Shown here: positions 56,002 to 61,437 of the stretch, in pieces | Position numbering within the stretch: position 1 is the stretch's first letter | Layout: every line of letters starts with the position of its first letter | Source of the DNA: Haloarcula mannanilytica | Lineage (GTDB): Archaea; Halobacteriota; Halobacteria; Halobacteriales; Haloarculaceae | Direction: 5' to 3' | DNA: 64,000 bases | NCBI RefSeq assembly: GCF_005406125.1 | Contig: NZ_BIXZ01000001.1 | Location: 930,001 to 994,000, forward strand | Translations under genes and position numbers: made by a program | The notes under the pieces: generated by a model | Told to the model about the DNA's origin: nothing | The model's database searches: none | Seen by the model: only the letters and a program-made list of their open reading frames with translations

Positions 56002-56202
56002 TGCTCTTGGCGGGCGAACCGTTTTGCGGCCGCCGGTCGGGAACGTCGTATGGTCGACCTGCTCTCCACCTCCCCGTGGGACGTGCCAGACAGCGAGGTC
56101 TCGGACATAACTGTCACGCTGACCGTCAGTGACGGCAACGGAGTGTTCGACGCTAGACGTTGAATCCGACGGCCAGCGGTTTCGAAGGAGTTAGCTTTTG
56201 TC

Positions 56203-56322
56203 ACACGGTAACAAATAACAATATTCGTCAATACACGGTATAGAATCTGATAGCCCACCAAAGACAGTAATAAAATCTGCAAAGCCACCAATATAGATGT
56301 TCAGTATCTAGTCTGCCACCAA
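56203..56322 (+). repeat. Array of direct repeats spaced 30-31 bp upstream of nadA
   Basis: Three aligned 18-mers share the ending CCACCAA: AATCTGATAGCCCACCAA (56244-56261), AATCTGCAAAGCCACCAA (56274-56291) and TATCTAGTCTGCCACCAA (56305-56322). Their starts are 30 and 31 bp apart. Upstream, ACACGGTA occurs twice 30 bp apart (56203-56210 and 56233-56240). A spacing near three helical turns suggests protein binding on one face of the DNA. Confidence 0.6.
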
Positions 56323-56334
56323 CAACTGTCTTTG

Positions 56335-56347
56335 AAGATAAAATCTT
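56335..56347 (+). promoter_or_regulatory. TATA/inverted repeat near the nadA promoter
   Basis: AAGAT-AAA-ATCTT is a 13-bp inverted repeat that contains a TATA-like GATAAAATC, about 25 nt before the GTG at 56367 and 60 nt before the ATG at 56403. Transcription probably starts near 56366, giving either a leaderless GTG start or a 37-nt leader to the ATG. Confidence 0.45.
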
Positions 56348-56402
56348 TTCATGTAGTAGTTCCGAAGTGAGAGTACCGACAGGTGGATACATCGTGCCCG
56401 AA

Positions 56403-57530
56403 ATGGAAACTGCCGCGTTCGAGACGGACCTCAGCCTCTTCAAGTACGACAACCTCGAGCAGCTCCCGCCGGAGTACCGGGACCTCGAAGCAGCCGAACG
56501 GACCGAGCGCATCGAGAGCGCGCTCGACGAACTCGGTGACGACGTGGTCATTCTGGGCCACAACTACCAGCGCCAGGAGATTGTCGAACACGCCGACTTC
56601 ATCGGTGACTCCTACCAGCTCTCGAAGGAGGCCGCCCAGTCCGACGCCGACTACGTTGTCTTCGGCGGCGTGACGTTCATGGCCGAATCCGCGGACATCA
56701 TCACGGACGACGACCAGTCCGTGATTCTCCCGTCGATGGAGGCGTCCTGCCCGATGGCCGGGATGGCCGAGGCGCTACAGGTCGACGCCGCGTGGGCGGA
56801 ACTGACCGCGGCGCTCGACAACGACGAAGAGATAATCCCCATCACGTACATGAACAGCTACGCCGACCTGAAGGCCTTCTGCGCCGAGCAGGGCGGGCTC
56901 GTCTGCACCTCGTCGAACGCTCACAAGGCCTTCGAGTACGCCTTCGAGAAGGGCGACAAGGTGCTGTTCCTGCCCGACAAACACCTCGGTGAGAACACGG
57001 CCCACCGGCTCGGCATGGCCGACGAGACGGTGGAGTGGGACCCCTGGGACGCCGAGGGGACCGACGCCGCCGACGCCGTGGAAAACGACATCATCCTCTG
57101 GGAGGGGTACTGCCAGGTCCACGAGCGGTTCCGCGAGCACCACATCGAGTCCATCCGCGAGGACTACCCCGACGCGAACGTCATCGTCCACCCCGAATGT
57201 CGCCGCGAGGTCGTTGAAGCCGCCGATGTGGCCGGCTCCACCTCGACCATCTGTGAGTCCGTCGCCGAGGCCGACCCCGGCGAGACGTGGGCTATTGGCA
57301 CCGAGATTCACCTCACCCACCACCTCCAGCGGTGGCACCCCGACGTGAACGTCGTGCCGCTGTGTGGCGAGGCCTGCATGGACTGCAACGCCATGCGCCA
57401 GATCGACCCGAACTACCTCGCGTGGGTGCTGGAGGAACTGGTCGCGGGCCGCGAGCGCAACGTCATCGAGGTCGCGCCCGAAGAGAAGGGCCTGGCACAG
57501 GTCGCGATGGACCGGATGCTGGAGATATAA
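56403..57530 (+). CDS. nadA: Quinolinate synthase
   Basis: This 375-residue [4Fe-4S] enzyme condenses iminoaspartate with dihydroxyacetone phosphate to quinolinate. The three cluster cysteines are in 'MEASCPMAGMAEAL' (near residue 118), 'WEGYCQVHERF' (near 235) and 'CGEACMDCNAMRQID' (near 325). 'VILGHNYQRQEIVEHADFIGDSYQLSKEA' is the first domain's substrate site. I prefer the ATG at 56403 ('METAAFETDLSLFKYDN') because the family begins there; an in-frame GTG at 56367 is 36 nt upstream. It heads nadA-nadB-nadC. Confidence 0.93.
   Translation: METAAFETDLSLFKYDNLEQLPPEYRDLEAAERTERIESALDELGDDVVILGHNYQRQEIVEHADFIGDSYQLSKEAAQSDADYVVFGGVTFMAESADIITDDDQSVILPSMEASCPMAGMAEALQVDAAWAELTAALDNDEEIIPITYMNSYADLKAFCAEQGGLVCTSSNAHKAFEYAFEKGDKVLFLPDKHLGENTAHRLGMADETVEWDPWDAEGTDAADAVENDIILWEGYCQVHERFREHHIESIREDYPDANVIVHPECRREVVEAADVAGSTSTICESVAEADPGETWAIGTEIHLTHHLQRWHPDVNVVPLCGEACMDCNAMRQIDPNYLAWVLEELVAGRERNVIEVAPEEKGLAQVAMDRMLEI
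57521..57524 (+). promoter_or_regulatory. Shine-Dalgarno-like GGAG before nadB
   Basis: GGAG lies 8 nt before the nadB ATG at 57533, inside the end of nadA. Internal operon genes here appear to use ribosome-binding sites rather than leaderless starts. Confidence 0.5.
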
Positions 57531-57532
57531 CC

Positions 57533-59047
57533 ATGCCGGACGACGCCACAACGACGGACGTACTGGTCATCGGCTCCGGTATCGCCGGGCTGGCGGCCGC
57601 GCTCGCTGCGGCCCGAGAGGACGACGACGTGACGCTCGCCACCAAGGCGACCCGCCCGGAGGGGGCCTCCTCCTGGTGGGCACAGGGCGGTATCGCCGTC
57701 TCACGGGACACCCCAGAAGAGTTCAAGGCGGACATCATGGCCGCCTCGGACGGTACGGCTGACCCCGACGCCGTCGATGTGCTGGTCGAAAATGCAAACG
57801 AGGCCGTCGAAGACGTGCTGCTGGAGACGCTCGATGTGGAATTTGACCAGAACGGGTCTGGCCACGACTTCACCCGCGAGGCCGCCCACAGCGAGGACCG
57901 CATCCTCCACGTCGACGCCGCCACGGGCAAGCACATCCACGTCCCGTTCCTGAACTACGTCGACGACCACGACGGCGTGGAGATTCTAGACGACACCGCC
58001 GCGCTCGAACTCGTCCGCCACGAGGGGCGGGTCCACGGCGCGATGCTCGAATCCGACGGTGAAGTCGAGCCGTACTTCGCCGGCAGCGTCGTGCTGGCGA
58101 CCGGCGGTATCGGCGACCTCTACCCGCGGACGACCAACCCTGACAATACGACCGGCGACGGCATCGGGATGGCCGCGCTGGCCGGGGCCGAAATCGAGGA
58201 CATGGAGTACGTCCAGTTCCACCCGACAGCATGTGTCTTAGAAGACAATGAGGTCGCCTTCCTCGTCAGCGAGGCCGTCCGCGGCGAAGGCGGCCTGCTG
58301 CGCAACGGCGACGGCGAACGGTTCATGCCCGGCTACCACGCCGACGCCGAACTCGCGCCCCGCGACGTGGTCGCCCGGGCAGTCAAAGCTGAGCGCGAGG
58401 CCACCGGCGAAGTCACGCTGGATGTCTCGCCACTCGATTTCGCCGCCGAGTTCCCAGGCCTCGTTGAGCGCTGTGAGGAACACGGCATCGACTGGACCGA
58501 AGGCATCCCGGTCGCGCCCGCCGAACACTTCCTCTGTGGCGGTATCAGCGTCGACGACCGCGGCCGGACGACACTGGACCAACTGTATGCCGTCGGTGAG
58601 TGTTCCCGGACCGGCGTCCACGGCGCGAACCGCCTCGCCAGCACGTCCCTGCTGGAGGGACTGGTCTGGGGCCTGCGCGCCGGCGAAGACGCCGCCGGGG
58701 CCGAGCCGGAGCCAATCGAAACGCCGGAGCTGCTGGAACGGGACCCAGACCTGCCCGAGCGGTTCGCCCGCGACAAGTTCCAGCGGTTGACCCGCGTGAT
58801 GGACGAGAACGTCGGCGTCGAGCGCGACCCCGCTGAACTCCAGCGCGCGATGGCTGTACTCCGGCGACTCAAAGGCGAAGTCGACGCCTACGTGCGGACC
58901 CGGACCAGCCGGTCGCTGTACGAACTGCGCCACGCCAGCGTCACTGCGCTGCTGGTCGCGCGCCACGCCGCGGAGAACGAGGAGAGTGTTGGCACGCACA
59001 ACCTCGTGGACGCGAGCGAGGACCCGCCGGAGCCCACGGCCGACTGA
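57533..59047 (+). CDS. nadB: L-aspartate oxidase
   Basis: This 504-residue FAD enzyme oxidises L-aspartate to iminoaspartate for NadA. The FAD-binding fold is 'DVLVIGSGIAGLAAALAAAR' near residues 9-28. 'GASSWWAQGGIAVS', 'HSEDRILHVDAATGKHIHVPFL' and 'SEAVRGEGGLLRN' are typical of the fumarate-reductase/NadB family, and 'YAVGECSRTGVHGANRLASTSLLEGLVWG' closes the flavin site. The C-terminal helical domain ends 'NEESVGTHNLVDASEDPPEPTAD'. The ATG follows the nadA stop by 2 nt, and its stop overlaps nadC by one base (TGATG). Confidence 0.95.
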   Translation: MPDDATTTDVLVIGSGIAGLAAALAAAREDDDVTLATKATRPEGASSWWAQGGIAVSRDTPEEFKADIMAASDGTADPDAVDVLVENANEAVEDVLLETLDVEFDQNGSGHDFTREAAHSEDRILHVDAATGKHIHVPFLNYVDDHDGVEILDDTAALELVRHEGRVHGAMLESDGEVEPYFAGSVVLATGGIGDLYPRTTNPDNTTGDGIGMAALAGAEIEDMEYVQFHPTACVLEDNEVAFLVSEAVRGEGGLLRNGDGERFMPGYHADAELAPRDVVARAVKAEREATGEVTLDVSPLDFAAEFPGLVERCEEHGIDWTEGIPVAPAEHFLCGGISVDDRGRTTLDQLYAVGECSRTGVHGANRLASTSLLEGLVWGLRAGEDAAGAEPEPIETPELLERDPDLPERFARDKFQRLTRVMDENVGVERDPAELQRAMAVLRRLKGEVDAYVRTRTSRSLYELRHASVTALLVARHAAENEESVGTHNLVDASEDPPEPTAD

Positions 59048-59868
59048 TGCTCACCGACAGCGACATCGAGCGGTGGCTCCGTGAGGACGTGGGCCACCAC
59101 GATGTGACCAACGACGTGCCCGGAACGACCGAGGGTCGGCTGGTCGCGAAAGAGTCCGGCGTTATTTCCGGGCTCCACGCGGCCACCGCGGTGTTCGAGT
59201 ATCTGGACTGTGATGTCAAGACACCCGTCGCCGCCGGTGAGAGAATCGACGCCGGTGATGTCGTGCTTCGCGTCGACGGCCCCGCACAGTCCGTGCTCCG
59301 CGGCGAACGCGTTGCCGTGAACATCACCGGCCACGCGTCGGGCGTGGCGACGAAGACCCGAGCCGCCGTCGACGCAACGGAAGCGGCCACGGTGGAATCC
59401 CCACCCCGCATCGCCGGCACGCGGAAGACGACGCCCGGCTTGCGCGGCATCGAGAAGCGAGCGGTGGCGGCCGGCGGCGGCGACACCCACCGACTGGACC
59501 TCTCGCACATGGTGATGGTCAAGGACAACCACATCGCCGAGATGGGACTGGTCGACGCCATTGACCACTTCCGCGAGCGGGCCTCATTCACCACGAAAGT
59601 CGACGTGGAGGTGGAAACGCCTGAGGACGCCCCGCGAGCGGCCGAGGCCGGCGCGGACATCCTCCTGCTGGACAACATGTCCCCCGCCGAGACCGAGCGG
59701 GCCGTCGACATCGTGGCTGAGTCCGATGCCGACGCGCTCACGGAGGCCAGCGGCGGTATTACGGTCGAGAACGTGCCGGCCTACGCCGAAACGGGCGTGG
59801 ATATCATCTCGATGGGGGCGCTGACCCACTCCGCACCGACGCTGGATTTCTCCTTTAGAACTGGTTAG
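59047..59868 (+). CDS. nadC: Nicotinate-nucleotide pyrophosphorylase (carboxylating)
   Basis: This 273-residue enzyme converts quinolinate and PRPP to nicotinate mononucleotide. It starts 'MLTDSDIERWLREDVGHHDVT'. The PRPP/quinolinate site is 'RIAGTRKTTPGLRGIEKRAV' near residues 120-140, followed by 'HRLDLSHMVMVKDNHIAEMG' and 'VDVEVETPEDAPRA'. The end 'ETGVDIISMGALTHSAPTLDFSFRTG' is the diagnostic C-terminus. It is the third gene of the nad operon. Confidence 0.95.
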   Translation: MLTDSDIERWLREDVGHHDVTNDVPGTTEGRLVAKESGVISGLHAATAVFEYLDCDVKTPVAAGERIDAGDVVLRVDGPAQSVLRGERVAVNITGHASGVATKTRAAVDATEAATVESPPRIAGTRKTTPGLRGIEKRAVAAGGGDTHRLDLSHMVMVKDNHIAEMGLVDAIDHFRERASFTTKVDVEVETPEDAPRAAEAGADILLLDNMSPAETERAVDIVAESDADALTEASGGITVENVPAYAETGVDIISMGALTHSAPTLDFSFRTG

Positions 59869-59892: not shown

Positions 59893-60639
59893 TCACTCTC
59901 GACTGTCGTCGAACCGTCGCGCCAGCATGACCTCGTCGACCAGTTCGCCCCGAATTTCGTAGTGGTCATCCCGGACAGCCTCAACTGTCCAGCCGGCCGC
60001 CTTCAGGAAGTCGATGGCCCGCTCGTTTGTGGCCGGCAGGCTGTTGTACACCTTCCGGCAGCCCCGGCTCGCGGCCCACTCGACCCCGCGGTGCAGCAGG
60101 TGGCTGCCGATCCCGTGGCGGCGGTACGTCTCCATCACCCCAAGCGTTAGTTCGGCCGTCGACGAGAGCTCCGCCACCTCGGACATGGAAACGTGGGCCC
60201 AGCCGACGACATCGTCGTCGACGGTGGCGACGAACACGATCCGACAGCGGTTGGGACCCCAGCGGACGAGTGTGTTCTCGTAGGCCAGTTGCTCCGCGAC
60301 GCCGGCTGCGGCGAGATACGGCTCCTCGCTGGTGACCTCCCGTATCGTACCGACGACGCCGGAGAGGTCCGACGGTCGGGAGGGCCGGATCTCGTAGCTG
60401 ACGCCGGCCTCGTAGTGTTCGGCGGTCTCGCCCTGATGGAGGGCGACGGTGAGCTTCCCGTCCTCGGTGGTCTCGATGAGGTCGTCGCGTTTGAGGATGG
60501 AGAGGTGGTGCTGGAAGCGCTCGGGGTCGACGCTGATGGCTTCGGCCACCTCGGCGGGCGCGACGGGGCCGTTTCGCTCCACGAACCGATACACGTCAGA
60601 CCGGTCGCCGCCGAGTTCGAGGTCTGTTGGGGACGGCAT
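59893..60639 (-). CDS. HTH-GNAT fusion protein (N-acetyltransferase)
   Basis: A 248-residue protein whose start I place at ATG 60639 ('MPSPTDLELGGDRSDVYRFV'), with a TATA-like TTTTCAAG about 32 nt upstream; a longer frame from 60705 is possible. The first 70 residues form a winged helix ('ERNGPVAPAEVAEAISVDPERFQHHLSILKRDDLIE'). The remainder is a GNAT domain with the acetyl-CoA loop 'VMETYRRHGIGSHLLHRGVEWA' and 'NERAIDFLKAAGWTVE'. It may regulate transcription, acetylate a small molecule or do both. It converges with nadC and diverges from kptA. Confidence 0.85.
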   Translation of the reverse strand: MPSPTDLELGGDRSDVYRFVERNGPVAPAEVAEAISVDPERFQHHLSILKRDDLIETTEDGKLTVALHQGETAEHYEAGVSYEIRPSRPSDLSGVVGTIREVTSEEPYLAAAGVAEQLAYENTLVRWGPNRCRIVFVATVDDDVVGWAHVSMSEVAELSSTAELTLGVMETYRRHGIGSHLLHRGVEWAASRGCRKVYNSLPATNERAIDFLKAAGWTVEAVRDDHYEIRGELVDEVMLARRFDDSRE

Positions 60640-60768
60640 CTCGCTACGGGCCAATGGTGACTGTATCCACTTGAAAACACCCGGCACATGTGCTTGTTTG
60701 TTCATGGTTATCCCGACGCGATATCCGTTCACGTGACGCTTTTGTACGGCCGTGGCCCATCCCCGACC

Positions 60769-61437
60769 ATGCCAGATGCGGTCCGTCGCTGTCCCGAGGA
60801 CGGGTTCTTCGAGGGCGACACGTGCCCGGTTTGTGACGGAGAAGGGACCCGCGTTCTCGACGGCGCACGACGGCGACAGCTCTCGAAGTACGTCTCGGGG
60901 GCGCTCAGACACTTCCCCGACGACGCGGGCATCGAGTTAGACGAGGCCGGCTGGACGGCGTTCGATTCCCTCCGCGCTGCAGTCGAGCGAAAGTACGACT
61001 GGGCCGACGGCGAGGCGCTGGCAGGCGTCATCGCCACGGACCCAAAGGGGCGCTTCGAGCGAACTGGAGTCAGCGACGAGTCGGGCGAAGTAGCCGCTGA
61101 CGGTTGCGTTCGAGCGGCCTACGGGCACTCTGTCGACGTGACCCTCAATGGGACCGACGACCCTGTCCCGGCGACGCTGTATCACGGGACCGCCCCGCGG
61201 AACGTCGCGTCGATACGCGAAGCGGGACTGCAGCCGATGAACCGCCAGAGGGTTCACCTCTCGGACTCCGTCGCGGCGGCCCGCGAAGTGGGACATCGTC
61301 ACGCCGACGCCCCCGTCGTGTTCATCGTCGACGCTGGGGCGATGCAGGCCGACGGCCGACGCATCGTCAAACGAGGGACCGAGACGTACACGACCGACCG
61401 CGTCCCGCCGCAGTACCTCTCGCTGCTGGACGAATAG
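60769..61437 (+). CDS. kptA: RNA 2'-phosphotransferase (Tpt1/KptA) with N-terminal zinc ribbon
   Basis: This 222-residue enzyme transfers an RNA 2'-phosphate to NAD+, forming ADP-ribose 1''-2''-cyclic phosphate and nicotinamide. An N-terminal ribbon (CPEDG...CPVC, residues 8-22) precedes the Tpt1 lobe 'RRRQLSKYVSGALRHFPDDAGIELDEAGW'. The NAD lobe has 'TLYHGTAPRNVASIREAGLQPMNRQRVHLSDSVAAA' and 'VVFIVDAGAM'. These carry the catalytic R-H-R-R type residues. The start ATG 60769 fits TATA-like CTTTTGTACG at about -26. It uses the NAD+ made by the neighbouring nad operon product pathway. Confidence 0.9.
   Translation: MPDAVRRCPEDGFFEGDTCPVCDGEGTRVLDGARRRQLSKYVSGALRHFPDDAGIELDEAGWTAFDSLRAAVERKYDWADGEALAGVIATDPKGRFERTGVSDESGEVAADGCVRAAYGHSVDVTLNGTDDPVPATLYHGTAPRNVASIREAGLQPMNRQRVHLSDSVAAAREVGHRHADAPVVFIVDAGAMQADGRRIVKRGTETYTTDRVPPQYLSLLDE

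Follow-up and report, generated by a model that had tools for sequence, protein, structure and literature searches.

The upstream activating sequence (UAS) of GvpE/Bat in haloarchaea is a single short site adjacent to the BRE, and we know of no long phased array for these regulators. In Methanococcus maripaludis, activation of the fla promoter requires several short EarA sites placed directly upstream of its BRE (PMC5512572), a placement resembling that of the sites described below. The archaeal Lrp-type regulators Ss-LrpB and BarR likewise bind several regular sites on one face of the helix, some of them three turns apart (PMC2995911, PMC10201364). Control of the nad pathway, which concerns us here, is described for the bacterial regulators NiaR, NrtR and NadR. 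A sequence-only reading of the present locus, which noticed direct repeats phased at about 30 bp in front of nadABC, knew of no described haloarchaeal NAD-operon operator of this form. We found none either in the open literature searched, which likewise yielded no regulator known to act on the transcription of NAD-synthesis genes in archaea. According to our reading of the aligned leaders, to which we give a probability of about two in three, the repeats form a cis-regulatory array of nadABC, with phased sites for a predicted cooperative activator helping TFB/TBP.

The repeats of the nadA leader

The features considered in this work are listed below. The window is the whole stretch of 64,000 nucleotides of Haloarcula mannanilytica DNA that was analysed, and negative positions are counted from the TTGAAG of the core element.

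56209..56215, plus strand: cap half-site TAACAAA, part of GGTAACAAATAAC, marking the 5' end of the array; aligns with the TAYARAA half of the units and is conserved in 13/13 Haloarcula leaders
56226..56245, plus strand: unit 1, CGTCAAT ... TATAGAA, including the second ACACGGTA; lines up with the relatives' first unit, PWM 15.2 bits
56255..56275, plus strand: unit 2, CCACCAA ... AATAAAA; PWM 16.2 bits at -76
56285..56305, plus strand: unit 3, CCACCAA (at -46) and a degenerate second half with no recognisable TAYARAA
56316..56322, plus strand: promoter-proximal CCACCAA (-15 site); common to many haloarchaea, columns nearly invariant in Haloarcula
56332..56351, plus strand: core element TTGAAGATAAAATCTTTTCA, putative BRE/TATA core promoter with the partial dyad TGAA...TTCA; conserved in almost all 99 leaders
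56381..56386, plus strand: AGGTGG, probable Shine-Dalgarno (SD) sequence of nadA; conserved among Haloarcula leaders
56394..57530, plus strand: nadA, quinolinate synthase, GTG start; orthologues in Haloarcula and across haloarchaea
57533..59047, plus strand: nadB, L-aspartate oxidase; Pfam FAD_binding_2 and C-terminal domain, conserved nadA-nadB-nadC order
59047..59868, plus strand: nadC, quinolinate phosphoribosyltransferase; Pfam QRPTase_N and QRPTase_C

Three 18-bp elements ending in CCACCAA (AATCTGATAGCCCACCAA at 56244, AATCTGCAAAGCCACCAA at 56274 and TATCTAGTCTGCCACCAA at 56305) and two copies of ACACGGTA (at 56203 and 56233) were found exactly where the sequence-only reading had placed them. 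The plus strand of the window holds four copies of CCACCAA, three of which are inside the array stretch, while ACACGGTA occurs three times in the window and twice inside the 120-bp stretch. The phased repeats of the window are far from chance: when the leader was shuffled with its dinucleotides preserved, 0/4000 shuffles gave any 7-mer three times at steps of 28-33 bp. The array has a GC content of 38%, against 65% for the whole window, in agreement with the description of this stretch as AT-rich. Its position had to be corrected, as it lies not 60-170 nt upstream of the promoter but 10-129 bp upstream of the core element at 56332.

The product of 56394..57530, which we take to be NadA from the gene order, has orthologues in 29/32 Haloarcula genomes. 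Two well assembled Haloarcula genomes, at least 90% complete (G005 and G017), are without a nadA match, and these organisms may depend on the salvage of NAD precursors. In eight Natrialbales (leaders L065, L068, L074, L075, L081, L082, L086 and L100), nadC begins about 1.3-2 kb farther from nadB than is usual, which suggests that a gene was inserted into the operon. The relatives carry a complete Amidohydro_3 gene of about 619 aa between hmgA and nadA, of which the window holds a short remnant at 56051-56163 (C-terminus ...LSTSPWDVPDSEVSDITVTLTVSDGNGVFDARR, then stop). Hence, this gene was lost in the lineage of the window.

The 30-bp unit, its conservation and its copy number

We stacked 13 closely related Haloarcula leaders (L002-L014) in steps of 30 bases starting from the conserved TTGAAGATAAAA. 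A single unit with the consensus CCACCAA-N2-CCGGA-TAYARAA (i.e. CCACCAA-N7-TAYARAA) fills the stretch from the TAACAAA cap to the core promoter of nadA in tandem copies, and the motif is present in 13/13 of these leaders. The CCACCAA and ACACGGTA elements, initially taken for two separate families, are the halves of this one repeating unit: the ACACGGTA pair consists of CGGTAACAAA (the cap) and CGGTATAGAA (the end of unit 1), and hence represents the second half. As the outermost half-site, the cap, is of the TAYARAA type and the innermost is a CCACCAA, the array is made of an integer number of TAYARAA-N9-CCACCAA sites, each covering 23 bp of a 30-bp repeat. Some 10 bp separate the end of the last site from the BRE-like TTGAAG.

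In twelve relatives CACCAA is found at -15, -45, -75, -105 and -135 from TTGAAG, and in four also at about -165. Upstream of -15, the PWM gave 13-30 bits at the CACCAA sites of the relatives, nearly all of them above 15. In the eight species which have five sites, the 152-bp array could be aligned without gaps, there being no indels. Between these species, identity amounted to 87% in the CCACCAA columns, 90% in the TAYARAA columns and 62% in the other columns of the array, compared with 80% at the fourfold sites of nadA and 76% in the 40 nt upstream of the cap. The spacers of the array thus outpace silent sites in divergence but keep a constant length, and the motif mask placed in register outscored all 29 slid versions. 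These are repeated sites at a constant helical spacing, conserved over orthologous promoters, as in a phased operator or UAS array. We must note that a 30-bp period is kept by tandem duplication itself, so that the phase alone is no proof of selection on the helix; the stronger evidence lies in the indel-free, diverged spacers together with the conserved half-sites.

A neutral relic of tandem repeats, generated by slippage and functionless, would fit the copy number differing among species and the partial decay of the window copy. We give it scarcely any credence, since the units are too diverged for easy slippage, since the half-motifs and their spacing are conserved above fourfold sites while the spacers are not, and since the -15 site is conserved far beyond the genus. 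We also discarded intrinsic curvature, because the conserved A-rich and CAA blocks, as judged from the stacked units, alternate at 14 and 16 bp and not at about 10.5, as well as a CRISPR or iteron array, because the units have diverged from one another, are not divided by separate spacers and occur with nadA only.

The number of units varies. In the window the cap GGTAACAAAYAAC is at -125, which makes four CACC sites including that at -15. It is at -154 in eight species (five sites), at -184/-185 in four (six sites), at -64/-65 in Haloarcula of the Halomicroarcula type and in Halomicrobium (two sites), and at -94 to -96 in Halosimplex and a relative (three sites). A scan of outgroup leaders gave 16 cap matches for 1.4 expected, 13 of which deviate from the 30-bp phase by -2 to +1; as these leaders are partly non-independent, the telling part is the set of distinct lengths, N = 2, 3, 4, 5 and 6. 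The nadA tree pairs the window, as sister, with a six-site species and shows six-site arrays in three places, which means that units were gained or lost several times. The motif was expected to be kept in orthologous nadA leaders, which it is, and the repeat number to be constant, which it is not. Since this number changes by whole 30-bp steps, its variation argues for function and not against it.

In the window, the sites are spaced by 29, 30 and 31 bp, deviations which nearly cancel out. No PWM hit above 5 bits was obtained for its unit 3 (at -46), so that we consider this unit as decayed. Compared with the rest of the 13-leader set, the window copy is shortened, partly decayed and the most degenerate, and this species may rely less strictly on its array. 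A perfect inverted repeat of 10 nt in the window, CAAAGACAGT/ACTGTCTTTG, was set aside, as it is not seen in the leaders of the relatives.

We then consider where else the array occurs. With a two-unit sequence model, the nadA leader was the only locus at E 0.1 or better in Haloarcula, among the best 19-150 candidates scored per genome. Over 293 genomes of the order, the only matches among the best candidates scored were the Haloarcula nadA leaders and four weak partial ones elsewhere (L147-L150, E 0.001-0.003), which we took as chance. Judged by the best candidates scored, the long array thus appears once per Haloarcula genome, at nadA only; isolated single sites elsewhere may escape such a search. 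This bears on the possibility that the 30-bp period reflects positioned archaeal histone dimers, each of which wraps 30 bp (PMC10516927), rather than a regulator. With an array that each genome has at a single locus and that contains specific conserved 7-mers, and with histones scarce in haloarchaea and no nucleosome-like ladder in Haloferax (PMC10626798), we attach very little weight to this chromatin explanation.

Core promoter and age of the array

With at most one mismatch, the core element has one match per genome, always at nadA, in 28/32 Haloarcula genomes, and we therefore rejected it as an operator shared by several genes. The core TTGAAG..AAAAT.TTTTCA is conserved across haloarchaea beyond the needs of a plain TATA box, and it could double as a repressor operator.

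A PWM built from Haloarcula only was run on 74 outgroup haloarchaeal leaders. The best of 245 offsets was -15 (z 7.9), and -45 was the next best outside the neighbourhood of the core. The column profiles of 99 leaders show CNNCC conserved at the -15 site, just upstream of TATTGAAGGCAAAATCTTTTCAATA. Hence we take the proximal site as ancestral: the initial state was one site at -15, sometimes two, which multiplied in Haloarcula. Among the Natrialbales leaders (L055-L103), 15/21 of those listed carry GTGGTATT, with reversed orientation and always at -25 from the core, and this may be an inverted form of the -15 site.

The repeats lie on the side of the operon's coding strand and near the start codon, as would be expected if they acted in RNA, binding a protein or a ligand within a long 5' untranslated region. 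We regard this as highly improbable. The BRE/TATA-like core and the downstream SD stand between the array and the start, and a spacing exact to 1 bp is unexpected in flexible RNA. The leader matches no Rfam family and its predicted fold is no better than that of shuffles (z 0.49), so that it was not classed as a riboswitch or structured leader.

Archaeal activators typically bind upstream of the BRE, while repressors usually overlap the promoter or sit downstream of it (PMC5512572); TK0271 (PMC6737238) was also taken into account. With only about 10 bp between the end of the array and the BRE/TATA-like core downstream of it, we preferred an activator to a repressor. Of the proposal that a repressor or activator assembles along the helix to control nadABC, the phased direct-repeat regulatory array proved real, with activation as the more probable sign of its action. 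A repressor array would consist of an oligomer spreading, or wrapping DNA, as far as the core, and blocking TFB/TBP when NAD or niacin is plentiful. The bacterial NAD regulators NiaR and NrtR are indeed repressors (PMC5343564, PMC7713382, PMC6800001), and the core, a 20-mer occurring once per genome, is partly palindromic and conserved in haloarchaea, so that it could be an operator. However, every repeat is upstream of the BRE, the usual position of an activator (PMC5512572), and neither of these two repressors was found: NiaR (HTH and 3H domain) was detected in 0/32 Haloarcula genomes, by a search that did detect the Bacillus subtilis and Thermotoga maritima controls, and the NrtR winged helix had no match in the genome of the window, by a search that did detect it in four control genomes. 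We consider repression unlikely, while keeping it as a serious competitor.

The putative regulator and the known systems

The array is probably the landing strip of a putative control protein. A sequence-specific protein would dock at every site from one side of the helix, with about three turns between sites, and neighboring protomers would touch, so that assembly would proceed cooperatively towards the promoter, from the proximal site outwards. The upstream copies, added by duplication of whole units, would raise occupancy and tune strength or cooperativity. The protein would assist TFB/TBP and in this way activate nadABC, probably under a shortage of NAD or a precursor. A more daring version, which we put forward tentatively and hold to be possible rather than probable, is that the regulator polymerises in 30-bp steps from the cap to the BRE, the gain or loss of whole sites (N = 2 to 6) setting the strength of the NAD-synthesis promoter. 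If true, this would mean an undescribed family of archaeal regulators and a modular archaeal promoter tuned by its length.

Which protein might bind? A gene for a protein with HTH_20-like and GNAT domains lies at 59893-60912 of the window, on the minus strand and convergent to nadC. Its linkage with nad genes is shared by Halorientalis, Halosimplex and Halostella, and a stop codon is present in the matching frame of several Haloarcula genomes. We rejected it as the binder, because a close orthologue is missing in two genomes with clean six-site arrays (G019 and G030) and is present in two without the long array (G020 and G011). Among the upstream neighbors of nadA scanned in outgroups, no HTH protein was found.

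An Lrp/AsnC-type regulator, as an octamer or as chained dimers, could wrap the array in the manner of BarR or Ss-LrpB. This proposal concerns which protein binds, and therefore overlaps both activation and repression. The genome of the window encodes seven AsnC/Lrp ligand domains, and the centre-to-centre distance of 30 bp agrees with Lrp/AsnC sites, which are spaced by two or three helical turns with the DNA wrapped round the complex (PMC2995911) and for which spacings of 27-29 bp are described (PMC10201364). On the other hand, BarR sites are semi-palindromic 15-mers, whereas the unit is here a directional direct repeat whose dyad symmetry is not above that of permuted columns (p 0.52), and hence we did not file the array as an Lrp array. 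Moreover, a closed octamer has four dimers, fewer than the six sites that some arrays contain, and no Lrp gene was seen adjoining the operon. We judge such a protein an improbable candidate.

Whichever protein binds, the array offers a precise DNA bait with which to fish for an archaeal regulator of NAD synthesis, and Haloarcula can be cultured in the laboratory. Promoters with 2, 3, 4, 5 and 6 sites, all in phase, already exist in nature and lend themselves to a test of the effects of site number and helical phase, and also of the growth of an array from a single ancestral site.

Finally, we compare the array with the systems mentioned at the outset. The GvpE/Bat UAS is adjacent to the BRE, as the nad array is, but it is single, short and of a different sequence. 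EarA has four 6-bp sites beside the BRE, whereas the nad array has bipartite sites of 23 bp in 30-bp repeats, extending up to about 180 bp. BarR binds semi-palindromic sites, whereas the nad unit is asymmetric, with a strict 30-bp spacing and N from 2 to 6. Arrays of activator sites are thus known in archaea, and what is new here is an asymmetric 30-bp unit, present in 2 to 6 copies and in strict phase.
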